From Pirellulales bacterium (GTDB taxonomy: Bacteria > Planctomycetota > Planctomycetia > Pirellulales > UBA7805), in NCBI GenBank assembly GCA_029245145.1, contig JAQWPY010000050.1, positions 1 through 32,929 of the forward strand: a DNA stretch of 32,929 nucleotides, read 5' to 3'. Below, one piece after another: positions 4,509 to 29,133 of the stretch (its first letter is position 1; the number at the start of each line of letters is the position of its first letter). The position numbers were made by a program, and so were the translations under genes. A model generated the notes under the pieces. The model saw only the letters and a list, made by a program, of their open reading frames with translations, had not been told where the DNA came from and searched no databases.

Positions 4509-6920
4509 ATGCGATTTTGCTCGTTACTCACATCGCGATACCGTGCTTTTCTCGCCACGGCAGCAGTGCTAGCGGTCGCGCTGCCGTTCGGAGGCGAAGG
4601 TAAGTCCCAGGCGGCCGAACGGGTAGAAGTGTCGGCCCAAATTTTTCCTCAGCAGGGGGCAAAGGCAGAACTCCGGATAACGACAAAAATTATTCCCGGT
4701 TGGCACATTTATTCGATCACACAAAAGCCGGGAGGGCCCAAGCCGACACGCATCAATTTAGTCGCCTCCAATCGTTATCGCATTGCAGGCGATTTTGTTG
4801 CCGTGCCCCCGGCCGTCGTTCACCACTACGACTTCTGGCCCGATCTTGATGTCGAGGAGCACGAGCAGCAGGTGACGTGGTCCGTGCCAATTGAGGCAGA
4901 AAACGGTTGGCAGGGCGTTACGATTGCGGGAGATGTCCAGGGACAAGTCTGCAAAGATCTCTGTGTCAATTTTTCGCAAACATTCGAGGCAAGCGTTGCC
5001 CCCGGTGCGCCCTCGATCAGCGACTCGATCGCCGGCCCGCCTCCTCCAGTCTCATCAGTCAGCCCTCAGCCGGAACAAAACCCCCAATCCGAATCATTCA
5101 GTACCCCTTACGTCGATGTTTCGGGCGAACTGGTGCCCGGAGGTGTGGAGGAGGAAGGTCGAACGCAATTGATTCTTCGGGCAATGCTCGCGCCCGAATG
5201 GCACGTCTACTCTTACGAAAAGCAGGCGCCATCCGACCCCGTCCGATCGCGTCCGACGCTCATCGTACTGGATCAGCGGGATGGTCTCCTTGCCGGCACG
5301 CCTCGGGCAAGTTCGCCAGTGATTAGCAAAGCGCGCGATCAGTTCCCAGAGTACGTCGATAATTTTCACCATGGCGATGTTGATTGGATCATCGACATCG
5401 AGGTGCCGGAAGATGCACGTACAGGGACCCATACCCTTAGTGGCTGGTTTGGTTTTATGGCGTGCAAGGACGACGGAACGATGTGCGATCCCCCCAAGGC
5501 GGCGAAGTTTGAAGTCACTCTCGAAGTGGGACAGAAGTTGGCGACAAACAAGAGGGTGACGTTCGTTTCCGCAAGCTATGCGAAAGCGGCTTCTGCAGCA
5601 GAACGGGCCGCTCCGTGGGATTTAGTGATTCCGCAAGCGAAAGCATGGACCTGGGGTGCGCTGATCACCAACATGGGGTGGGCCCTGCTGGCCGGCCTGT
5701 TGTTGAATGTGATGCCATGTGTTTTGCCCGTCATAGGGCTCAAGGCAATGTCGTTTGTACAACAGGCAAATGAAAGTCGAAGCCGTATTCTGACCTTAAA
5801 CTTGGCGTTTTCTGCTGGAATTCTTTTCGTCTTTCTGATCCTGGCGCTGTTTGCGGCTTTTGCAGGCCTCGCCTGGGCAGACCAGTTTCAGGATCCACGC
5901 TTTGGCATTGCCATGGCGGCACTCGTTTTTGTGTTTGCCTTGAGTCTCTTGGGCATCTGGGAGATCCCGATTCCCGGTTTTGTCGGCTCGAGTGCCGCGC
6001 AGTCTGTCGCCGAACGAGAGGGCCTTTCCGCCGCGTTTTTTAAAGGCGTCCTGAGTACACTCTTGGCCACGCCATGCGTGGGTCCGTTTATGTTTACCGG
6101 GCTCACGTTCGCTGCCGAACAACACTCGCCCGTAATCACGCTTGTTATTTTTGGAGCCATGGGCATCGGCATGGCGCTCCCGTTCCTGCTGATCGGTGCC
6201 TTTCCCGCCTGGATTCGCTTTCTTCCAAAGCCTGGCGGGTGGATGGAATCTTTTAAGCACTTGATGGGGTTTGTCTTGCTGGGAACGGTTGTTTGGATAT
6301 TTTACGCATTCGTACCCGACCATTACTTTGTTCCCGCGCTCGGTTTACTTTTCGGACTCTGGCTGGCCTGTTGGTGGGCCAACCGTACCCCGATGACCGC
6401 TGCGCTACCGGAGCGACTTTATGGTTGGTTGGTCGCGGCAGTGCTCGCAGCTTTTACCGGATACGCCTCATTTGCGTTGCTCGAAAAATCACCCCACGCG
6501 CAAACTGCCCAGGCCGCTTCAGGCGACTGGGAACTTTTCTCACAGGAAACACTCGATCGCCTCCGGGAGCAGGGCTCGACGGTGCTGATTGATTTTACGG
6601 CCGACGGCTGACTGATCTGCAAAACAAACGAGGCAGTTGCCTTGCAAACCGAGACGACAGAAGCCTATATGCGCGAGAATGGAATCGTTGGTCTTATTGC
6701 CGATAAGACAGAAGAAGCCCCGGAAATTGATCGCCTCATGCTTGAACTGGGGCATAGCAGTTTGGGAATTCCGCTTTACGCCCTCTACCCGTCTGATGGA
6801 CGCCCCCCGATTATTTTCAGTGGATTATTGACCGAAGGAACGCTGTTGGATCGATTGAGGGAAGCAGGGCCATCGCGGGGGTTCGGCACCCAGACGGCCA
6901 GAGCATCGATTACCAACTAA
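4509..6920 (+). CDS. dsbD: DsbD-type thiol-disulfide interchange protein with an in-frame TGA (candidate selenocysteine) at residue 701
   Basis: Predicted to carry reducing equivalents from cytoplasmic thioredoxin across the membrane. Read through one TGA (6609-6611) it has 803 residues. Signal peptide about 1-36. Two DsbD-alpha-like periplasmic domains follow, with cysteines 148/152 (CKDLC) and 319/326. The membrane core spans about 385-655, with VMPCVLPVIG (Cys404) and ATPCVGPF (Cys523), the buried cysteine pair of this family. The C-terminal thioredoxin domain (about 675-795) reads IDFTADG-TGA-LICKTNE. Relatives have a WCxxCK motif here, so the TGA replaces the first cysteine of CxxC, and Cys704 remains. 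The frame then stays open and family-like (GLIADKTEEAP, SLGIPLYALYPSDG) to TAA. The ATG at 4509 is chosen because it begins the signal peptide and has AGGG upstream. A nonsense mutation or sequencing error is possible, but the intact downstream frame and the following hairpin favour selenocysteine. Confidence 0.8.
6629..6644 (+). promoter_or_regulatory. Candidate bacterial SECIS hairpin after the in-frame TGA of the DsbD gene
   Basis: CGAGGC and GCCUUG form a 6-bp stem (one G-U pair) closed by the loop AGUU. The stem begins 17 nt and the loop 23 nt after the TGA. Known bacterial SECIS elements lie inside the coding region just after the UGA, with a short stem, a small loop and a G among the first two loop bases; this hairpin has all three. 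Such short hairpins also occur by chance, so it supports, but does not prove, selenocysteine insertion. Confidence 0.5.
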
Positions 6921-10020: not shown

Positions 10021-10355
10021 TCTCGGGCAATGGGAATCATGCGCATTGCGTAACATGCGGTGAGAGACGTACTGTGCAGCATGTTTTGAAGTATCCCGTC
10101 GGAGTGTTTAATTGGGCAATTCAGGCGACCTGGCTCAACTGTCTTTGCTAGCAGAGATTGATTTATGGGCAAAGCCATTTTTTGAGCTTCTTCGCACAAT
10201 GGATCTGGCTTACCTCCTTTTACCCTTTCGCGGACGTGTTCTAAACTTCAGGAGGGGTTCGTGACGAATGAAGGAGTTGAGTGGTTATTTGTTTCAGGAA
10301 ATAAATAAGGGTCAGATAAGTGCTGCAGAGAGTATGGATTAAAGGAAGCCGACAT
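10021..10355. other. Gene-free stretch of 335 bp
   Basis: Between the Hsp70-like gene and the DUF1573 gene. I see no coding sequence, tRNA-like fold or terminator with a clear T-run. It must hold the promoter of the DUF1573 gene unless that gene is read through from the left; no strong -35/-10 pair stood out by eye. Confidence 0.5.
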
Positions 10356-11369
10356 ATGATTCGCAGCTTGCTGCTTGTGGTCACTCTCGTGGTCAGCTTT
10401 GCCGCACAGAACGCTGGTGCCCAGGAATGGGCAACAAAGATGTTTGATCGCGTGGACTACGATTTTGGAAGTCTTGCCCGCGGTGCCAAATCTGAACACA
10501 CGTTTAAAATCAAAAATCACTTTGAAGAAGACATTCGCATTCAAAGTGTCCAATCAAGTTGCGGCTGCACTATCCCTCAGATCAGCAAAGAAGTTCTAGC
10601 CTCGGGTGAAGAAGCCGAGTTGGTGACCGAATTTGACACGGTCAAGTTCAAAGGGCCCCACTCCGCAACGATTACCGTTACGTTTGCTCCGCCCTTCTCA
10701 GCCGAAGTTCGGCTACAAGTTCGCGGTTATGTCAGACAAGATGTCGTTTTTGAACCAGGCCGCATTGAATTCGGTCAGGTTCCCGCCTCCGATGGCGCCA
10801 GCCAAGCAGTTGCGATCACGTATGCGGGTCAAGACGGTTGGAAAATAGAGGATGTACGCAGTGCCAGTGATAATTACGAAGTTGAACTTCGTGAACTTGA
10901 ACGAGCAGGCAGCCGCGTGGAATACGAAATGCTCGTCCGTCTTAAAAAGACGGCGCCCACCGGCTATCTCAGCGATCAATTGACGTTGGTCACAAGCGAT
11001 TCAGAAAGGCGTTACATTCCCCTGATGGTCGAGGGAAGGATAGTGCCATCCGTTGATGTAGAACCCAAATCATTGCATCTCGGAGTGGTCAGGCCCGGAG
11101 AGTCAGTAACCAAACAGCTAGTGGTTCGTGGAACGACACCCTTCCGCATTCTTGATGTCGCCTGTGAGAAGCCGGATGATTGTTTCCAGTTTGCGGCAAA
11201 TGACAAAGAGAGAAAGCTGCATTTAATTCCGGTGACGTTTACAGCAAGTGATACTCCGGGAAAAATTGTGGAAACAATTCAGATTACCACAGGGTCCCAG
11301 GCCGCCGCCGATTCGGGTGATAAAAAAGCACTTGAGGTCGTGGCACACGTGGAAGTGCTCGAAGATTAA
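10356..11369 (+). CDS. Secreted DUF1573-family protein (Ig-like/ASPM-type beta domains)
   Basis: A 337-residue exported protein. A signal peptide covers about residues 1-22, ending AQNAGA before QEW. The DUF1573 signature follows: VDYDFGSLARGAKSEHTFKI (33-52), then IQSVQSSCGCTIP (62-74) with Cys69 and Cys71. At least two more beta-sandwich repeats can be seen, beginning near VFEPGRIEFGQV and SVDVEPKSLHLGVV. DUF1573 proteins are abundant in planctomycetes and Bacteroidota and have no proven role; the fold resembles Ig-like adhesion or scaffold modules. The ATG at 10356 starts the signal peptide and has AAGGA about ten bases upstream. It is convergent with the zinc-ribbon gene on its right. Confidence 0.88.
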   Translation: MIRSLLLVVTLVVSFAAQNAGAQEWATKMFDRVDYDFGSLARGAKSEHTFKIKNHFEEDIRIQSVQSSCGCTIPQISKEVLASGEEAELVTEFDTVKFKGPHSATITVTFAPPFSAEVRLQVRGYVRQDVVFEPGRIEFGQVPASDGASQAVAITYAGQDGWKIEDVRSASDNYEVELRELERAGSRVEYEMLVRLKKTAPTGYLSDQLTLVTSDSERRYIPLMVEGRIVPSVDVEPKSLHLGVVRPGESVTKQLVVRGTTPFRILDVACEKPDDCFQFAANDKERKLHLIPVTFTASDTPGKIVETIQITTGSQAAADSGDKKALEVVAHVEVLED

Positions 11370-14864: not shown

Positions 14865-15767
14865 ATGATCCGCACGGCCATTGAAAGCTTCATCGAATAT
14901 CTTCGCGTCGAACGCAACGCCTCGAATCTTACCATCAAAAGTTACGAGGAAGATTTAATTGCCCTGGTGCTCTATTTCGAGGAGACGGAAGGCCGCGAGG
15001 TGGAGCTTTCGGAAGTGACCACGCTCGAACTCCGCCGATTCGTTGCAGAATTACAGCAGGCGGGTTATGCAAAATCGACGATCTCCCGAAAACTGGCCTG
15101 TCTGAGAAGTTTTTTCCGTTTTGCCATGCGCGAAGGATGGGTTGAGGCAAATATTGCCAAGCCGCTGCGCAACCCGCGGGCGGGGCGAAAATTACCCCAC
15201 TTCCTTTCGGCAGAAGAAATTGCCCGCTTGCTCGAAAGCCCTCCTTCCACCAATGCTTCGGGAGTACGTGACCGCGCCATTTTAGAGACCATGTACTCTG
15301 CCGGTTTGCGCGTGAGCGAATTAGTCGGCCTCTCGATTGAAGACATCGACTTCACCTCAGGACTCGTCCGGGTACGGGGAAAGGGTCGCAAAGAGCGACT
15401 TTCTCCGCTCGGATCGTATGCTCAAAAAGCGATTAAAGACTGGCTCTCCCAAAGAGAGCCCAATCCAAAAGCGACCAAAGAGCATGCATCGGCCGTCTTT
15501 CTCAATCGCTTCGGCAACCGATTGACTTCTCGAAGTGTGGGTCGCATGCTCGAAAAATATCTCAAACAGTGCGGGCTCGACCAGCGCACGAGTCCGCACA
15601 CGCTGCGGCACAGTTTTGCAACGCACCTGCTCGATCGTGGGGCCGATATCCGGAGCGTCCAGGAACTTTTGGGCCACAAAAGCCTGATCACCACTCAAAT
15701 TTATACGCACGTCAGTACGGAGCGACTCCGCGAAGTCTATGAAAGTGCGCATCCGAGAGCCGGATAG
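14865..15767 (+). CDS. xerD: Xer-family tyrosine recombinase (XerC/XerD)
   Basis: A 300-residue site-specific recombinase, likely acting at the chromosomal dif site to resolve dimers. The N-terminal SAM-like core-binding domain fills about 1-95; the catalytic domain follows. All catalytic residues are present: Arg149 (SAGLRVSELVGL), Lys173 in RGKGRKERLSPLG, His245 and Arg248 (PHTLRHSFATHLLDRG), His271 (ELLGHKS) and the nucleophile Tyr280 (TQIYTHV). Length and motifs are those of chromosomal XerC/XerD rather than phage or integron integrases; no integron-specific insertion is seen between the second and third boxes. Which of C or D it is cannot be settled here. It is convergent with the response regulator, 19 bp apart. 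Confidence 0.92.
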   Translation: MIRTAIESFIEYLRVERNASNLTIKSYEEDLIALVLYFEETEGREVELSEVTTLELRRFVAELQQAGYAKSTISRKLACLRSFFRFAMREGWVEANIAKPLRNPRAGRKLPHFLSAEEIARLLESPPSTNASGVRDRAILETMYSAGLRVSELVGLSIEDIDFTSGLVRVRGKGRKERLSPLGSYAQKAIKDWLSQREPNPKATKEHASAVFLNRFGNRLTSRSVGRMLEKYLKQCGLDQRTSPHTLRHSFATHLLDRGADIRSVQELLGHKSLITTQIYTHVSTERLREVYESAHPRAG

Positions 15768-20498: not shown

Positions 20499-21518
20499 CT
20501 ACGCCCCGTCGGCCTGGGTTTGCGGCGCGGTGCGGGAAGCGGCACCCAGCCAGCGCTGCACCCGGCCGGGCGATACAAAGCTCAGGCTCGCGACCAGCAG
20601 CAGGGCATAAAAGGGGGCGATGCCACTGATCAGCATCAACGAGAACCAGGTTACCGCGCCCAATACCAACACGAGGGGCCGCGCCAGACGGTTCCAGATG
20701 AGGATCGGAAAGAGCAACTCGACCAACACGATCAGGTGCGTCCAGGCGGCCACCAGATAGGGATGTTCCCGCAGGAAAGTGAGAGACTCAAAGAGTCTGG
20801 ACTGCGGTCTGGAAATCATCATCCACACCGCCTCGCCCGTACCCCAGGGGTCGTACCACTCCTGGGCCCCCACGATCTCGCCGGGGCCCGAAATTTTGGC
20901 CAGTCCCATCATGGCGGCCACGATGCAAAGGTGGACTTGAATCAGCCGGATCGCCAGCGTTGCGCTGAAATACTTTTTCTCGTCCAGGTTACTTTGACCT
21001 TTGCGGTCTGCCAGATAACGATCGACCGAGAGCCGCGCCCCACACGGACTGAGGCACAGGTAAAACTGAAGCGCGGCCAGCAGTGGCTCAAATTCGGAGG
21101 TCAGCAGCGGCGCACGCTGGATATAGCTGAGCGTGACAATCAGCCCCAGCACGGCGGTCACCCGGGAGAAGCAGCCGATCGTGAAGAGCCCAAGGATGAC
21201 GATCCCGATCCAGTGGGCGACATTCAAATGCAGTGGTGAATCGAGGTGACTGAGGTATGAGAGATTGGCCGGATTGTAAACCGCATTGTTGGGCTGATAT
21301 TGCTCGGTGAGCTCAAACGGCAAGAGCCCGCCCTGGGCAAAAAAGTAGGAGAGGTCCGCGGTGTAACTGAACACAAACAGCAGGGCGAACAGACCAGTAA
21401 CGATGCGGATCAGGCACAGTGGTAACGGATCGCTCGGCAGGTACCAAAAACGGTTCCACCCGCTTCCGAAGCCCTCGGTCAGTCGCCCAACGTAATTGCT
21501 CATCGAGAGTGTTTCCAT
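20499..21518 (-). CDS. HTTM-domain polytopic membrane protein (vitamin K-dependent gamma-carboxylase-like)
   Basis: A 339-residue multi-span protein of the HTTM family, related to the membrane part of vitamin K-dependent gamma-carboxylase. Typical blocks are LCLIRIVTGLFALLFVFSYT near the start, WIGIVILGLFTIGCFSRVTAVLG, then a loop with CLSPCGARLSVDRYL, and IRLIQVHLCIVAAMMGLAKI, plus WAAWTHLIVLVELLFPILIW-like spans to the end. Bacterial HTTM proteins are mostly uncharacterised; carboxylase activity should not be assumed. The ATG lies two bases after the stop of the upstream gene, so the two are surely translated from one message and probably work together. Confidence 0.88.
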   Translation of the reverse strand: METLSMSNYVGRLTEGFGSGWNRFWYLPSDPLPLCLIRIVTGLFALLFVFSYTADLSYFFAQGGLLPFELTEQYQPNNAVYNPANLSYLSHLDSPLHLNVAHWIGIVILGLFTIGCFSRVTAVLGLIVTLSYIQRAPLLTSEFEPLLAALQFYLCLSPCGARLSVDRYLADRKGQSNLDEKKYFSATLAIRLIQVHLCIVAAMMGLAKISGPGEIVGAQEWYDPWGTGEAVWMMISRPQSRLFESLTFLREHPYLVAAWTHLIVLVELLFPILIWNRLARPLVLVLGAVTWFSLMLISGIAPFYALLLVASLSFVSPGRVQRWLGAASRTAPQTQADGA

Positions 21519-21520
21519 GC

Positions 21521-22231
21521 TTATCGATCCCGTCCTCGGGTCCCTCGCGACTGGGTCATCTCGCCCTGCCCGCCGCGCTTGGAGGGGGACCAGCGATCTT
21601 CATCGAGGATCAGATCGGCGTTGTAAACCGTGTCGTACCAACCGGGATAGTATGGATCTCGGATAGCCGGTTCCATTTCATCGAGGCTGACCATGTCCTG
21701 CGTCCGCTGCGAGAGCAACAGAAAACGATGTGCGCCCTCATCGATGCCTGCGTTTCGCAGCATGCCTCCGGCGATTGCCGAAACAAGTGATGCCTCTTCA
21801 TTGTTATCTCCCTGCACCCCAGAGAGCCATGTTCCCAGCATCAGGTAGCGCTTTTTTTGCATGCCCCACGGTGTGGTTCCCTTGGGGATCAGATCGATCT
21901 TCTGTAGGCTTTCGGCCGCCTCGCTCGAACCATCGAAATCGGCCGGCGGATCGATCACGATCTGGCATAAATGGTCCCAGTCGTCGGCCGTGTTGGAGAT
22001 CAGGTCATATCCGTAGCCGGTGTCGATCCCCAGGGTGTGCAGGTAGGGCTGCACTCCCGGACTTGATCGCAGTTGTCGTCGCAATCCGCTACGCGCCCCG
22101 AAATTGCCGGAGATACCAGCTAGAATCGCGAAAAAGTGAAAGAAGAGGAAGAAGGTGATCAGTGTCCGAACGCCTTGAGAAGGCATTTCGGAGGCTTCCT
22201 CGGAGGCGGCGGCCGCGGGTTTTTCTTGCAT
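21521..22231 (-). CDS. Single-span hypothetical protein, partner of the HTTM protein
   Basis: A 236-residue protein from the ATG at 22231; an in-frame GTG at 22258 could add nine residues. After a polar start comes one membrane segment (about 22-39, TLITFFLFFHFFAILAG), then a mostly polar external or cytoplasmic domain with conserved-looking aromatic motifs (LGIDTGYGYDLISN, YLMLGTWLSG, DPYYPGWYDTVYNADLILDEDRW). It ends in a basic tail. No family is recognised with confidence. The next gene begins two bases after its stop codon, and such HTTM-partner pairs are common in planctomycetes to my knowledge. It may form a complex with the HTTM protein. Confidence 0.75.
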   Translation of the reverse strand: MQEKPAAAASEEASEMPSQGVRTLITFFLFFHFFAILAGISGNFGARSGLRRQLRSSPGVQPYLHTLGIDTGYGYDLISNTADDWDHLCQIVIDPPADFDGSSEAAESLQKIDLIPKGTTPWGMQKKRYLMLGTWLSGVQGDNNEEASLVSAIAGGMLRNAGIDEGAHRFLLLSQRTQDMVSLDEMEPAIRDPYYPGWYDTVYNADLILDEDRWSPSKRGGQGEMTQSRGTRGRDR

Positions 22232-22350
22232 GGCAGGCTGGTCGTGAAGGGCGGGCACATAACGAGATTGTTACCGCTATTCATCGTCCAACTTGCCCGG
22301 AAAACTCCAACGCCACGCAGGGTAACGCTCGACCTTTCCAAATCAATAAA

Positions 22351-22384
22351 AAAAGCCGGGCCCCCAAGAGGGAACCCGGCTTTT
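22351..22384 (-). terminator. Intrinsic terminator of the Cys-rich protein gene
   Basis: AAAAGCCGGG and CCCGGCTTTT form a perfect 10-bp stem around a 14-nt loop. On the minus strand the stem is followed by a run of T (complement of the A-run at 22348-22354), so it ends leftward transcripts about 75 bp beyond the stop codon of the Cys-rich gene. It also separates that gene from the HTTM pair. On the plus strand it has a shorter T-run. Confidence 0.85.
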
Positions 22385-22459
22385 ACAGTTCGCTTTACGC
22401 TCCGCTTTGGTAAACCAATCGGGCGAAGCGCCCTATCGGCTACCGATGCTCAAGCTAGC

Positions 22460-22798
22460 TTAGGCAGCACAGCCGTTACAGGCAGGCGCCGAGCAACCGT
22501 TGCAGCGACCCTTGCATCGACCGTGGCAACGGCCTTTGCAACGACCATGGCAACGTTCTTTGCCACAGCAACGATCTCGACCCGAGCAGCGATCACGACC
22601 GCAGCAGCGATCTTTGCGACCACTGCAACGATGACGACCCTTGCACTTGCAAGACTTGTCGTTGTCACAAGCGGAGCAATCATCTGAGCAGTCACAGCTA
22701 CAACCGTGACCAGCAATGGCTTGCTTCTCACCGCCAATCATGGCGATTCCAACAACCGCGAGAAAGATCGCGATTCCGAATACTAAGGTGCGATTCAT
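22460..22798 (-). CDS. Small secreted cysteine-rich repeat protein
   Basis: A 112-residue protein. A signal peptide covers about residues 1-29 (MNRTLVFGIAIFLAVVGIA then GGEKQAIAG). The remaining 83 residues hold 21 cysteines. The first part has CSCDCSDDCSACDNDKSCKC; the centre repeats RDRCSG/RDRCCG; the last part is a run of four-residue C-x-G-R units (residues 83-98) ending CNGCSAPACNGCAA. Basic residues are frequent, so it is strongly charged. A GGAGG lies ten bases before the ATG, a candidate promoter lies upstream and a clear terminator follows, so it is an independent, probably well-expressed gene. Metal binding or disulfide-linked structural roles are both possible; I do not recognise a family. 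Confidence 0.8.
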   Translation of the reverse strand: MNRTLVFGIAIFLAVVGIAMIGGEKQAIAGHGCSCDCSDDCSACDNDKSCKCKGRHRCSGRKDRCCGRDRCSGRDRCCGKERCHGRCKGRCHGRCKGRCNGCSAPACNGCAA

Positions 22799-23410
22799 CT
22801 TTTCCAATCCTCCAAAAAGGTACCCAAAAAAGTAGGAGTTGACATCTAAAACGGTTGCCGTCTTGGCATTCTTCTCCTGCCCCGCCGACTCGACGGCCAT
22901 GGTCGGGCGACAGCAACCCCCAAGATCAAACCCCCGCATTCCCGGGTACCGGCAAAATACGCCAGATACGTTCGGTTTAGCGGTTTTTTAATCTAGGGGG
23001 GTAAAATAACAAGGTGTTTTTTATTGTCAACCAGCCATTTAGGTAAAATAAGGCTGATAAGTATTTTTAGTAGTTTGAGTGAGATAGATAGGTTTCCATA
23101 AACTCTACCCCATAATGCTTAGGTGGCGGATGAATCACAATGGTTTTATAGAAAAAAAACGTAAAATACGTAGTTTTTTCCGGTTAGCAAGTTTTTGCGG
23201 GCCAAACACTGCAGAAATAGAGATCACCCTCTTGTGGCCCTCACTATTTTCAACAGCTTTTGGTGGTCAGGGAGACCTATCCGGCCAGTTTTTGTGGTCG
23301 GTGAGCAGCACGAAGTGATGGAGGCGGGCAATCGCCCAGGATGGGTGACTCGGGCGGAGCGACTCGACAAGAGGACTGCAAGCGGGCTTTAAACGATCGG
23401 CCGAAAGAGG
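22799..23410. other. Gene-free stretch of about 610 bp, AT-rich in part
   Basis: Between the Cys-rich gene and the end of the pilus operon. No coding sequence is supported. The part around 22980-23180 is AT-rich and contains three near-identical GTAAAATA words (near 23001, 23043 and 23161). A candidate leftward promoter lies at 23003-23030. No terminator for the pilus operon was found by eye just after its last stop codon. Confidence 0.5.
23003..23030 (-). promoter_or_regulatory. Candidate sigma-70-type promoter for the Cys-rich gene
   Basis: On the minus strand a perfect -35 hexamer TTGACA (23025-23030) is followed after 16 bases by TATTTT (23003-23008), which fits the -10 consensus at four of six positions. 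Transcription would start near 22996 and leave an untranslated leader of nearly 200 nt before the Cys-rich gene. Planctomycete promoters are not well defined, so this is tentative. Confidence 0.45.
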
Positions 23411-25372
23411 TTACCGCTGGTTTGGACTCTCGGGATTCTTGCCTCCAAAGCGATTTTCATCCTCATCGTCCTTATCCCGATCCTTTTTGTCCTCGGTCGC
23501 TTTTCGCCGCTTAGCGTCTCCTTGTGCGGCCGCCGCGTACAGGGAACTTTGCTTTTCACCCTCACTCGTATTTCGAACCATAAAGCGGCCGCCAGAATCG
23601 AAGAACAGCAACTCACTCATTTCTGTTTCCTCAGACCCATTTTTTCGAGAACGGATGTCGACGAGCACGATGTCCGCACCGATTTGCTGGGCCGCCTTAC
23701 TCGGAATACCTGCTCCGTTGATCGCATACGCTTCTGTCAGCTCTCCACGGACCACTCCACCCTGCTGTAAATTTTCCTTTTTCCCGATTTGAAGATTTCC
23801 ACCGGACTCGGCCGGTTGGGACACAAAAATGGTTGCCGTGTTGAGGCCATTTGCGGCGTTTTGAACGCCACCAGCATAGATGCCAATCGCCTCGGGAATC
23901 CAAACAGGGTTACTCGGCTCACTCCAGGGCAGCCATGCGTCGGGCGTGAGCGACCACTTGCGATCGGGAGGATTCTTTAAGACGCGTGGCGACTTTTCGT
24001 AGTTCGGATTTTCGAGAAGCAATTGAACCCGATAGAGATAAGTCTTTCCGGGCTGAACGTCAAAGTCGAACAACCGTACTAACTTATTACTGATCGTATT
24101 TGGGGGTGCCGTTTGATCGTTCGTATCTGGTTGATTTTCAGCCTCAGTGCGCGCGGTTGGTTCAGTCGGTTCTTTGGTCCGAAACCGATCTATAGCATTC
24201 GTCTTTTTTTTCGGCTGAGTGCCATTGCCTGCGTCCCGTCGCCCGGTGTTCACGGTCGGCCTTTTAAAATTTTGAGGTCTGTCGGCACCTTTTGCCACGC
24301 TTTTGACTCTCAGGGGAAGATCAGGGTGGGTGGCCCAAGCGTGCCAATCGGCAAATGCCAACGGCCCGAGTGGCATGGTTAAACCGCTCTGGACGTATTG
24401 CGAATCGACGATCTCATTTCCCAAAGTCGCCCAATTTTCAGTATCGCGGATGTCCACCATCATATTGAGTGATGTCTGGCTTGCGGATGCTTCTTCTGAA
24501 GAGATATCCTTTGCAGGTGAATTGTTGGGCGTTTTTATTCCCCACTGCCACTCAATGTCGGGCTGACTCCAATCCGGCTGAAAGTTTTCCACATCCATCG
24601 GAACTTCAATTCGTTGAATCCGTGCGAGCAGGTATTTTGGAACATCTTCTTGAGGGAGATAACCCCCGGCCTCGCGGAAGTTTTTTTCAAAAATTGCATG
24701 CTGATCTTTTACGGGCAACACCGCCGTGATCACGGCCCAATGTTTAAGCTCCCCGGTGGCCCCTGCAGGCATGCGGATACCGGGCAAAACGTTCTCGGAA
24801 AGTCTCACTACCCTCGGTTTTTTTCCAGGCTTGGCATCCTGAGGTGGAATCGCATCTTGCCGAGTCTTTTTATCGTTTTGACCTTCCTCCCTAAGCCAGA
24901 AAACACCGCTTCCCCCCGACGCCCATAAATTTTCGAGCCCCAGGAATTGAGGACGGCCTCGTTTTCTTATTTTCTGAGCATCCACGCCGGTCAGTGAATC
25001 AAACGAATAGCTGTCTGCCGCAATGCGACGTTTGGCTTCCTCGACCCGGGCAACGAAGTCAGGGGGTGTCTCGGCCGCTTCCTCCCCCGAGGCTTGAATT
25101 TTGCTATCCAACGCATCGGCACGTTTTGCAAGCGCCGAGGGGGTGTGCTTTGAATCGGGGCGAAGCGTTCCGATGGCAGAGTAGATGAGTAGGCCAACAA
25201 TTACCACTGACGCCACCAAAACAATCTTCTCAATATGGAGAATGATCCACTGCTTGGCACCCGCAGACGCTGAAGTGCCCGGCTGCGAAGATGACGCGGT
25301 CGAGGACGGAATGTCTGCCGCCTGCTCGTTTTCTGCGGATTTCTTTTTGAGAGAGAGTTTGGGAAATTTCAT
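23411..25372 (-). CDS. Large single-span protein in the pilus operon, unknown
   Basis: A 653-residue protein, last of three genes in a leftward operon; its ATG lies four bases after the stop of the PilO-like gene. The N-terminal 47 residues are polar and Ser/Ala-rich, followed by one membrane segment (about 48-66, EKIVLVASVVIVGLLIYSA). The large remainder should be periplasmic, with several disordered Pro/Thr/Asn-rich linkers. One block, RLFDFDVQPGKTYLYRVQLL, resembles a fibronectin-like strand pair. The C-terminus is very charged. By position it could stand in for PilP, linking the inner-membrane platform to the outer membrane, but no PilP signature is visible. The role is inference from context. 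Confidence 0.8.
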   Translation of the reverse strand: MKFPKLSLKKKSAENEQAADIPSSTASSSQPGTSASAGAKQWIILHIEKIVLVASVVIVGLLIYSAIGTLRPDSKHTPSALAKRADALDSKIQASGEEAAETPPDFVARVEEAKRRIAADSYSFDSLTGVDAQKIRKRGRPQFLGLENLWASGGSGVFWLREEGQNDKKTRQDAIPPQDAKPGKKPRVVRLSENVLPGIRMPAGATGELKHWAVITAVLPVKDQHAIFEKNFREAGGYLPQEDVPKYLLARIQRIEVPMDVENFQPDWSQPDIEWQWGIKTPNNSPAKDISSEEASASQTSLNMMVDIRDTENWATLGNEIVDSQYVQSGLTMPLGPLAFADWHAWATHPDLPLRVKSVAKGADRPQNFKRPTVNTGRRDAGNGTQPKKKTNAIDRFRTKEPTEPTARTEAENQPDTNDQTAPPNTISNKLVRLFDFDVQPGKTYLYRVQLLLENPNYEKSPRVLKNPPDRKWSLTPDAWLPWSEPSNPVWIPEAIGIYAGGVQNAANGLNTATIFVSQPAESGGNLQIGKKENLQQGGVVRGELTEAYAINGAGIPSKAAQQIGADIVLVDIRSRKNGSEETEMSELLFFDSGGRFMVRNTSEGEKQSSLYAAAAQGDAKRRKATEDKKDRDKDDEDENRFGGKNPESPNQR

Positions 25373-25376
25373 CAAG

Positions 25377-26621
25377 CTAGATTTGTTTTCTGGTGAACGA
25401 TGCTTTTTTACTTCTTTGCGCCGACTGACTATTTGCAGAATCCTTCCCGCGGGATACTTTTTCGACGAGGTATGCGAATCCCCATATTTCAATCAGGGTT
25501 CCACGACCTGCAGACGCGGTATCTTTTTCCCCGTTACGCTCGGCGTTTTGTTTGCCCCTACCCGACGGCACTTGAGACCGCGACCCGCGCCGCCGACCTC
25601 CCCTCGAGGTCACCTTAGGCGCAATTGTTTTCAGCGCGGAATGATGTTCGAACCGCATGCCTTCGATAATGAGTGGAATTGGCGAGTTCGACAGCGAACG
25701 AAGAAACGATTCGAGGGAGGAAAGTTCCATACGGACCTTGAGTCGAAAGGGGACAACACTGAATCCATCGACTTTATTTGATTTTGAAGCAGATTCAATT
25801 GATTGGCGTATTTGTTCCTGCTTCCAACTCGATACCGTTTTTTTCTGTTTATCTTTTTTTGACTTTGCGGATTTTCTGCCTTGAGGTTGTTCCTTCTTTA
25901 CCACTTCTGCATCGAACTCTAATAACCAGTCCTGCTCACCAATAGCGTTTGCCACCTCTAAAAAGCTTGCGGTATCTTCGATAGCAAAAATGGGAAGATC
26001 AAATCGATCGCTCGTTCCCTCATTCGTCTGCTGGATCGCACGCACCAAGGCTTGGTAAATCCAAAGCACCTGTTGAAACGTTTTACAATCGCTTTCGTTT
26101 TTGATTGATGACAGACTTCCCTCGAGGTTTTTGTAATCATCAACATTCCACAAAACTCCCGGTTTGTCGGGTGTGTCGACCGCATCGACAATCACTCGCA
26201 ACTGTTGAATCTCGTCACCCACAATTCTCTGGTAATCACTGATTGTTTCATCGTTCCAGTCATCTTGTTCAATTTCGACCAGCGATTGTTCGTGAAGAGA
26301 CGCAGGCCAAGACTGCACACCGGCCTGGGATTCCTTGACGATATCCCAGGCCTTTGTTCCACTTTGAGTTATTTGATTCGTGAGTTTTTCCCTACTTTCG
26401 ATCCAGGATTCATTTGGAAAATTGTTCCCGCCCCGACTTTTGCTTTGTTTATCAATCGAAGCGAACTGCGATTTTATTTTTGCCTGATTGCTTTTGAAAT
26501 CCTTTTTAATTTTTGCTGCGCCGGAACTCCAGGCGTAAAAGAGAACCGCGGTGGCTACCAGAAAGAGCACCCAAACGTGGTGTTGTTTGATTTTTACGAG
26601 GTAAGGTTTGAGTTTTTCCAT
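25377..26621 (-). CDS. PilO-like inner-membrane pilus protein
   Basis: A 414-residue protein with PilO-like layout: a short cytoplasmic start, one membrane segment (about 15-32, HVWVLFLVATAVLFYAWS), a long polar helical region, and a C-terminal part with the pattern of a small ferredoxin-like domain: VVPFRLKVRMELSSLESFLR then SPIPLIIEGMRF, as in PilO and related secretion proteins. It is longer than typical PilO (about 200 residues), with extra inserts of low complexity (for example the Gly-Arg-Ser-rich stretch before GTLIEIWGFAYLVE). It starts 70 bp after the PilM-PilN gene. Sequence similarity alone is weak; context makes the call. Confidence 0.7.
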   Translation of the reverse strand: MEKLKPYLVKIKQHHVWVLFLVATAVLFYAWSSGAAKIKKDFKSNQAKIKSQFASIDKQSKSRGGNNFPNESWIESREKLTNQITQSGTKAWDIVKESQAGVQSWPASLHEQSLVEIEQDDWNDETISDYQRIVGDEIQQLRVIVDAVDTPDKPGVLWNVDDYKNLEGSLSSIKNESDCKTFQQVLWIYQALVRAIQQTNEGTSDRFDLPIFAIEDTASFLEVANAIGEQDWLLEFDAEVVKKEQPQGRKSAKSKKDKQKKTVSSWKQEQIRQSIESASKSNKVDGFSVVPFRLKVRMELSSLESFLRSLSNSPIPLIIEGMRFEHHSALKTIAPKVTSRGGRRRGSRSQVPSGRGKQNAERNGEKDTASAGRGTLIEIWGFAYLVEKVSRGKDSANSQSAQRSKKASFTRKQI

Positions 26622-26691: not shown

Positions 26692-28866
26692 TTACGGTAA
26701 TTGATCTTTTTTCTGCGGTTGCCAGGCGAATTGCACGGTAAACCGATATTGGGTGAGTTGTTTGTTTGCATCCTGACCAAACGGAGAGGTAACCATTTTT
26801 TCATCCGCCTCAAACACCAAGGGGTGGCTGATTCCCAACGCGGAAATGGGAATTTCGCTTACACTGCCGGTTTGATCGGGTAAGGAAATATTGCGTTCCT
26901 GTAAGTTGTGAACAAACGTGCGCTGCACGAATTTTTTACCCGAACCATTCAAAGGAGAATCATGGAAGTGGTAACCCTTCAGTTGCACCACATAACCGGG
27001 GCCCCTGGGGGGGCCTGAAGGGTGATTCTTCTTTTCCGGCGCGGGGTACTCTTCAACATTTGGATCTCCCTCCTCGGCCTTCCAGGAAGCCTGCCCTTGC
27101 ACCGTCTCCGGCCCACTTGCTTGCATTTTGAGTCGCAGCGGCTCTGCATTTTCGGCAAATCGCACCTTATTGGCTGCGGTATACCAAGAAGCGAGGTTTG
27201 GTACTTTGCGGACTTTTAGATCAGTGATCCAAATATCCATTTTATTGGTGGGGCCTTGAGGTTGACTTTCAACTTTGGCCGCACTCGTCTCGATCACGTC
27301 CCCGGAGGTCTCGTCGGAGGCTTGGTTTTCGAATCCTTCCGGCTCCGTCGCCTCTTCCTTCTCACCCCGTTTCCGCCGTTGTTTTGGAGAAAGTTTTGCT
27401 TTGACCTGCGTGCGATTCCGATCGTCCGGCATACATTGATAAACCGCCTGACATAAATCGAGATAATTTTTTTTGTTGTTGAAGATTGCAAGCTTCGCCT
27501 CAACTCGCTCTTTTTGCTGGTTGTATTGGCCTAGTGCCTCATTGTATTTGTTGCTCAGATTGTTTGCCTTTTTTATGACGAGGTCGGCCTGCCGCGTCGC
27601 CTCGGCCCATTGGTTGTCGGATGAAATTTGAACCTGGGACCAACTCCACCAGAGAATGATAAAGTTGATCAAGCACGCAATGCCGAGCAGCGCGGTGGCG
27701 GCCACCGCCCACGGTTTTTTTCGATCGATAGTCCTTTCCCATACAATTTCTTGTGGCACTAGATTCGTGCCAATAGCCGCCTTGGAAAGCCCTTGCAGTG
27801 CAAGTCCATAAGAAATTGCAAAGGCGGAAAGGTGGTCTTTAAATGCGGGAGATTGTGTGACAACCGATGGGGCGAGTGTCCGCAATTCTGTAAGGTGTTC
27901 TACTTCGAGCCCTAGATTTTTGTTGAGATAGCGCTCGAGTCCCGGTAGTTTCAAAGAATTTCCCAAGGCAACAACACGACTGATTTTTGCTCCTTTGTCG
28001 AGACTTTGAAAATAACCCATCGACCGCTCTATCTCGGTCAACAAATCTTTAAAGATAGGCCGCATCGCCTGATAGATTGCTTTCGGATCTTCGGCTTTGG
28101 TAGCATTCCGTTTAAGGTGTTCCGCCTTCGCGTAAGTCAGCTGGAGTTCTTTTATCAGTGCTTTGGTGAAGTGACTTCCCCCCAATGGAATCGGTCGCTG
28201 CCAGACTCGATACCCGTTGGTGATCACCAGATCGGTTGTCTCTGTACCGACAGAGAGCACAATAATTGATTCTGGAGGATTTTCGGGGTCGTATTCCTCT
28301 GACCAAAGGGAAGGATCGATCTGATCGAAACTAATGAAATTATAGATTGCCAGAGGGGTCAATTGCACAATATCAATGTCGATCCCGGCCTCTTGATAAG
28401 GCGCAATCTCTTCATAAACCTGATCGCGTTTCATCGCGAACAGGCCAACCTCCGCATCAAGGGCAAACCCTTCCTCTTCACTCCCGCCCCACATCCGCTG
28501 GTAATCCCAAATCACCTCGTCCAAATCAAAGGGGATTTGTTGGTTCGCTTCGTAGCGAACAATGTCCGGAATTTTCTTGACTTCCACGGGGGGAAGTTTG
28601 ATGAACCGAGCGAGACCGCTCTGGCCGGAGACCGATACAGAAATCTGGGTCCCCTGTAAATCATTCCTGGAAAGAAACGATTGCAACGCCTCGCGGACAA
28701 TTTCCTCAGGTTCCGCCTCAGGCTGTGAGAGAATTTTTGGGTACTCGATGTAATCGAAGGCCTCGGCGACAATTTTGTCGGGAGCATCTTCGGACACGGT
28801 GCAACGCAGCGCCTTCAACGCGCACTGACCAATGTCGATACCCCATCTTGAGGCAACCTTTGCCAT
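26692..28866 (-). CDS. pilM: Type IV pilus assembly PilM fused to a PilN-like region
   Basis: A 724-residue protein. Residues 1-365 are the actin-like ATPase PilM: WGIDIGQCALKALRC (8-22), the SVSGQSGLARFIKLPPV block (79-94), VRYEANQQIPFDLDEVIWDYQ (103-123) and the late phosphate loop VVALGNSLKLPGL (298-310). Then NLVPQEIVWER (368-378) resembles the conserved cytoplasmic PilN peptide that binds PilM, followed by one membrane segment (about 386-408) and a coiled-coil-like stretch. The rest is periplasmic and contains large inserts. In most bacteria PilM and PilN are separate genes. The ATG at 28866 has GAGG upstream and puts the first strand at the usual distance. It is the first gene of the operon. 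Confidence 0.9.
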   Translation of the reverse strand: MAKVASRWGIDIGQCALKALRCTVSEDAPDKIVAEAFDYIEYPKILSQPEAEPEEIVREALQSFLSRNDLQGTQISVSVSGQSGLARFIKLPPVEVKKIPDIVRYEANQQIPFDLDEVIWDYQRMWGGSEEEGFALDAEVGLFAMKRDQVYEEIAPYQEAGIDIDIVQLTPLAIYNFISFDQIDPSLWSEEYDPENPPESIIVLSVGTETTDLVITNGYRVWQRPIPLGGSHFTKALIKELQLTYAKAEHLKRNATKAEDPKAIYQAMRPIFKDLLTEIERSMGYFQSLDKGAKISRVVALGNSLKLPGLERYLNKNLGLEVEHLTELRTLAPSVVTQSPAFKDHLSAFAISYGLALQGLSKAAIGTNLVPQEIVWERTIDRKKPWAVAATALLGIACLINFIILWWSWSQVQISSDNQWAEATRQADLVIKKANNLSNKYNEALGQYNQQKERVEAKLAIFNNKKNYLDLCQAVYQCMPDDRNRTQVKAKLSPKQRRKRGEKEEATEPEGFENQASDETSGDVIETSAAKVESQPQGPTNKMDIWITDLKVRKVPNLASWYTAANKVRFAENAEPLRLKMQASGPETVQGQASWKAEEGDPNVEEYPAPEKKNHPSGPPRGPGYVVQLKGYHFHDSPLNGSGKKFVQRTFVHNLQERNISLPDQTGSVSEIPISALGISHPLVFEADEKMVTSPFGQDANKQLTQYRFTVQFAWQPQKKDQLP

Positions 28867-29133
28867 CCCCACCACCTCTTACTTTTCTGTTCTCAAGCGT
28901 CCCAGGTCCACGCTGCTGTGAGCGGCGCAAAACCCATAACGTCCTCTCTTTTAACAGTCTAATGATCTGCTCAAAAGGATGCCAGTAAGAAACAACCCTA
29001 ATGGGGGGGTAATAGTGAATTCGTTTTCTAGCGTTGTCTCAAAGAAGGGTCCAGTTATCCGCCACAAATTCTTCCTCCGAAGAGGTACCGGAAAAAATCG
29101 CCCGACCCGCGCAGAGACGATACGCGTTTTTTT

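Follow-up and report, generated by a model that had tools for sequence, protein, structure and literature searches.

The dsbD gene and its reading frame

The stretch of DNA analyzed here (the window; 32,929 nucleotides, contig JAQWPY010000050.1 of the Pirellulales bacterium assembly GCA_029245145.1) harbors a dsbD gene whose frame, opened by the ATG at 4509, encounters TGA at codon 701, stays open for 102 more codons and ends with TAA at 6918–6920. The features of this gene and its putative product are as follows:

4509..6920, + strand: predicted dsbD selenoprotein gene, ATG to TAA, 803 residues including Sec701; orthologues in relatives
4647..4988, + strand: first nDsbD domain (DsbD_N, PF11412), Cys pair in VCKDLC
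Residues about 205–362 (limits set by eye), + strand: second nDsbD-like domain (second PF11412 stretch), Cys pair in ACKDDGTMC
5670..6302 (residues 388–598), + strand: membrane domain DsbD_TM (PF02683, 105.5 bits)
6525..6791 (residues 673–761), + strand: C-terminal thioredoxin-fold (gamma) domain, Thioredoxin_7 (PF13899, 41.3 bits), spanning the TGA
6609..6611, + strand: UGA codon 701, probably read as selenocysteine (Sec), first position of UxxC, assigned from the alignment of relatives and the profile column
6618..6620, + strand: TGC codon of Cys704, second position of UxxC, invariant in the Sec alignment
6629..6644, + strand: bSECIS-type hairpin CGAGGC-AGUU-GCCUUG, the loop beginning 23 nt after the UGA

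Other parts of the window code for a tyrosine recombinase of the phage integrase family with a SAM-like N-terminus (14865–15767), which may be either a XerC/D-like housekeeping enzyme or a component of a mobile element, and, on the minus strand, for four consecutive predicted proteins lacking a Pfam match (20499–26621), which adjoin a PilM-like protein (26692–28875). The ORF at 10320–11369 encodes a DUF1573 protein (PF07610) and has no in-frame TGA inside it; Sec-containing members of this family from elsewhere are mentioned in a selenoprotein inventory (PMC13188914). Neither a tRNA gene nor an Rfam match was detected within the window.

The nDsbD, membrane and gamma domains are thus all found by Pfam in one chain, and the translated membrane domain carries its Cys residues in the motifs MPCVLP and TPCVGP. 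A profile built from the C-terminal domains of 16 Sec copies ranked structures of E. coli cDsbD first in the PDB (2FWE, E = 9e-12); the phmmer search of the PDB with the single C-terminal domain gave no match. The score against the NCBIfam model of DsbD, NF001419, is 169.9 bits, below the curated cut-off of 330, and the protein is a divergent member of the family, placed through its Pfam domains and the structure profile rather than through NF001419.

In the profile, the Sec column coincides with Cys461 of E. coli cDsbD, i.e., the first Cys of ADWCVACK; the corresponding context in the window reads DFTAD-G-U-LI-C-K. The Asp located six residues before the Sec corresponds to Asp455 and the Glu seven residues after it to Glu468 of the E. 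coli protein, both being kept in the window's gene. The sequence-only reading had placed the TGA at the first active-site Cys of DsbD, with Cys704 retained and the rest of the domain encoded in the frame beyond, and all of this was borne out. It had also noted a change of the preceding Trp to Gly and had taken it as a sign that more than a one-base error was involved. The change is genuine but confined to four genomes of the genus (G000, G001, G003 and G005): Trp is kept in G002, G004 and most other Sec copies, and G006 has Ser. Hence, the rejection of a one-base error stands, although it is the sharing of the TGA by independent genomes, and not the Gly, that carries the argument.

Were the UGA a genuine stop, the gene would encode a truncated DsbD devoid of the gamma domain, and what follows would be either a pseudogene in decay or a short gene in its own right. 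Standard gene callers would indeed terminate the gene at 6611, and many DsbD-like proteins elsewhere do without a gamma domain. Still, this explanation is very improbable considering that dN/dS between G000 and G003 is the same before and after the TGA (0.042 and 0.042), indicating equal purifying selection on both parts (the upstream value for G000 vs. G001 was discarded on account of an indel in the ungapped comparison). In addition, TGA, and never another stop codon, recurs at exactly the equivalent of codon 701 in dozens of genomes, and an independent ORF after the TGA would start at the TTG at 6642, i.e., beyond the CxxC site.

The SECIS-type hairpin and the selenocysteine machinery

All seven TGA-bearing members of the family possess a 6-bp hairpin whose start lies 20 nt from the UGA, counted from its first base; the loop is AGUU or GGUC, the latter also being the apical loop in the fdhF SECIS of E. 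coli. The loop GU (6636–6637) is invariant in an alignment of 26 sequences; in a second class, the GU is situated one base earlier. A hairpin rule (loop start 22–26 nt after the UGA, stem of at least 5 bp, loop of 3–5 nt, GU at loop position 1 or 2) picked out all 45 distinct Sec sites and none of 44 Cys homologues, but the rule was drawn up after the Sec sites had been viewed and the sequences are related, so the Fisher value for this contrast is not a strict probability. Since approximately 9% of synonymous shuffles of the window sequence alone also yield such a hairpin, the argument rests on conservation and not on the window's hairpin as such. The stem exhibits covariation: both sides have changed in 17 cells, whereas shuffling gave 4.4 on average, and G-C (14), A-U (10) and C-G (1) alternate as the pair that closes the loop. 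A covariance model of the element scored 56.2 bits on the window vs. a maximum of 18.5 on the Cys homologues; in the window's genome it found no second element, which is unsurprising given that its training set was a single gene family.

According to the published bSECIS rule, the loop comprises 3–9 nt and starts 16–37 nt after the UGA, the upper stem has 4–16 bp, a G occurs within the first two loop positions, and the minimum free energy is at most −7.5 kcal/mol (PMC13188914). The window's hairpin falls within these limits, with AGUU as the loop at 23 nt, a stem of 6 bp and a region energy of −10.1 kcal/mol.

A misread base, with TGC or TGT reported as TGA, is conceivable in principle: draft assemblies do contain such errors, and the TGA at the second active-site Cys in G278 (see below) may exemplify them. 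For the window's gene it is extremely unlikely, as the identical TGA, accompanied by the hairpin in each case, is present in genomes that were assembled separately, with protein identities as low as 48%.

The assembly of the window's genome (2.4 Mb in 223 contigs, 65.5% complete) contains a tRNA-Sec (70.5 bits; reported by ARAGORN as SeC with the anticodon tca), SelA (546 bits) and SelD, the last interrupted by a contig end. SelB was not found in this incomplete assembly; the matches to the SelB model turned out to be other translation GTPases, namely C223, an EF-Tu-like protein of 431 aa, and C168, a CysN/CysC-like one. Full-length SelB is encoded in the near relatives G001, G002, G004, G005 and G006. 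In G003 (70% complete), SelA is present, and tRNA-Sec and SelB were not detected. Three of the components sought as a check on the sequence-only reading are there, with the fourth, SelB, found in relatives but not in the window's own, incomplete assembly.

A genome-wide reassignment of UGA (to Trp, Gly or Cys), in which selenium plays no part, would equally account for the in-frame reading of the TGA in dsbD. Such a recoding has hardly any probability left in view of the five of 19 other main ORFs of the window that end in TGA, the tRNA-Sec, SelA and SelD genes in the same genome, and the restriction of the TGA to a redox position accompanied by the SECIS-type hairpin.

Overall, the reading of UGA701 as selenocysteine, proposed from the sequence alone, is strongly supported by the machinery genes, the alternation of Sec and Cys among relatives (see below) and the hairpin peculiar to the Sec copies. 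With a probability of roughly 0.95, the gene would encode a full-length DsbD with a Sec-x-x-Cys center in its C-terminal thioredoxin-fold domain.

Distribution of the Sec and Cys forms

Each of the six genomes of the genus (G000–G005), as well as G006 of a sister genus, has TGA at this dsbD codon; in G007, G008 and G009, which belong to the same family, the codon is that of Cys. This is the alternation among relatives that the sequence-only reading had suggested looking for. Neither a true tRNA-Sec nor SelB was found in G007 and G009; G008 has both, yet its DsbD is of the Cys type.

The pattern FTAxxUxxCK matched in 18 of the 397 genomes of the order Pirellulales, and 17 of the matches are DsbD genes; the remaining one, in G235, is a chance match in a 26-codon frame. 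The reversed control pattern gave a single match across the same 397 genomes, so the matches exceed chance. Among 84,980 GTDB species genomes, 43 Sec-site loci were found, mostly in genomes titled Pirellulaceae or other Planctomycetota and in some Verrucomicrobiota. When read through, they are DsbD-like, nearly all with the PCxGP motif of the membrane domain in the available sequence. These counts are lower bounds, since the site of G341 (FTGPNUATCD) falls outside the pattern. Matches of the pattern searched phylum-wide were mostly thioredoxin-like selenoproteins or chance hits and not DsbD.

In a tree of 88 DsbD proteins, from which the residues flanking the site were excluded, at least five changes between Sec and Cys are needed, two of them forced by strongly supported branches. 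G007 and G009 are placed among the Sec sequences with support of 84–93, a position that suggests reversion to Cys alongside the loss of the machinery; the tree, however, was built quickly, some of its branches are long, and it does not prove which way the change went. The Sec-DsbD of G002 and G004 (loci L050 and L051) is shorter: the second of the N-terminal domains is absent, and identity in the membrane part is only about one half, which hints at a possible gene replacement inside the genus.

Two more kinds of TGA-bearing genes were noted in the course of the searches. Locus L166 (G278:C55) is a Cys-type DsbD from another family in which TGA takes the place of the second Cys of the active site (DWCLTUK). 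No clear tRNA-Sec was seen in four sampled members of that family; the TGA is likely an error or a sign of decay, with a CxxU center as the alternative reading. The loci L179–L193, from other classes of Planctomycetota, are short thioredoxin-like genes with TGA in FTAEWUGPCK or a similar context, many with a signal-peptide-like start; they represent further candidate selenoproteins other than DsbD.

Known relatives and the putative role of selenium

With the domain family cd02953 presumably representing the DsbD-gamma domain, the window's DsbD shares UxxC in this domain with a kind of selenoprotein already known from marine metagenomes. The Global Ocean Sampling selenoproteome of 2008 included 22 sequences of “Trx-like 2 (Thiol disulfide interchange protein)”, assigned to cd02953 and carrying UxxC (PMC2398784). 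They share with the window's protein the Sec that opens UxxC and a marine bacterial origin; unlike it, they stem from short metagenomic reads that lack the N-terminal domains and the membrane domain, and the passages of that paper that were searched name no planctomycete host (PMC2398784). Hence, the Sec form of the DsbD-gamma domain has a precedent (PMC2398784), and the novelty is modest.

The thiol:disulfide interchange selenoprotein of Geobacter and Syntrophus (WP_011366075.1; PMC1794560, PMC13188914) is likewise a UxxC thioredoxin fold of the same general name, but it belongs to PF13098 (Thioredoxin_2), in contrast to the DsbD_N, DsbD_TM and Thioredoxin_7 make-up found here. The 2026 inventory lists this type and also TsoB, which resembles a rhodanese/DsbD fusion and carries two Sec residues in UxxxxU; a full-length DsbD is not named in the passages found (PMC13188914). 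TsoB (NF045694) has a DsbD-like membrane part, and the window's protein aligns to its positions 176–521. Identity with TsoB was rejected, as the score of 151.6 bits lies below the cut-off of 805, and the window's protein contains just one Sec, within UxxC, with no rhodanese domain reported. E. coli DsbD (PDB 2FWE and others) shows the same domains, the same active-site position and the equivalents of Asp455 and Glu468; it differs in that Cys461 stands in the place of Sec, that there is a single nDsbD domain and not a pair, and that Trp, not Gly, precedes the site. Selenoproteins of Planctomycetes as such have already been described (PMC4807772). What is new, and well supported, is the full-length Sec-DsbD together with the SECIS, the range of genomes in which it occurs and the alternation of Sec with Cys; its architecture is more complete, and its patchy distribution wider, than the sources cited here describe.

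By analogy with the biochemistry of E. coli DsbD, cytoplasmic thioredoxin would serve as the reductant of the Cys pair in the membrane domain, from which electrons would pass to Sec701–Cys704, a center alternating between the selenenylsulfide and the selenol plus thiol. Thence, they would be handed over to the Cys pairs of the nDsbD domains and finally to periplasmic substrates, with Sec701 acting as the attacking nucleophile. All the cysteines needed for such a relay are present in the translation.

It is also conceivable that Sec is inserted but the UGA operates chiefly as a switch by which selenium determines whether the reductase is made in full or as a truncated DsbD serving a different role. 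The decoding of UGA competes with termination, and no second DsbD was found in the window's genome (as noted, an incomplete assembly). This variant is unlikely: nothing points to a function here for DsbD devoid of its gamma domain, and in E. coli the gamma domain is required to reduce nDsbD (PMC3961690).

As regards the full-length Sec-containing reductase, the pKa of Cys461 in E. coli cDsbD, raised by Asp455 and Glu468, amounts to 10.6, the highest value reported for a CxxC of the thioredoxin family, and lowering it renders the domain prone to reoxidation (PMC3961690). As both acidic neighbors are kept in the window's gene, Sec would alter the chemistry at a finely tuned site. As a tentative proposal, to which we give somewhat less than even odds, Sec-DsbD may constitute a full-length family, not described so far, among marine Planctomycetota and Verrucomicrobiota. 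The family would employ selenium as the nucleophile of the transmembrane electron relay, would have been gained or lost several times alongside the Sec machinery, and would depart from the unusually high nucleophile pKa thought to protect cDsbD against reoxidation.

In practical terms, gene callers stop at the UGA, leaving planctomycete DsbD annotated as if it had no gamma domain. For the biology of the family, a natural Sec flanked by the same two acidic residues would make the explanation linking pKa and reoxidation directly testable, and the Sec and Cys orthologues inside one family offer matched pairs for such a test.
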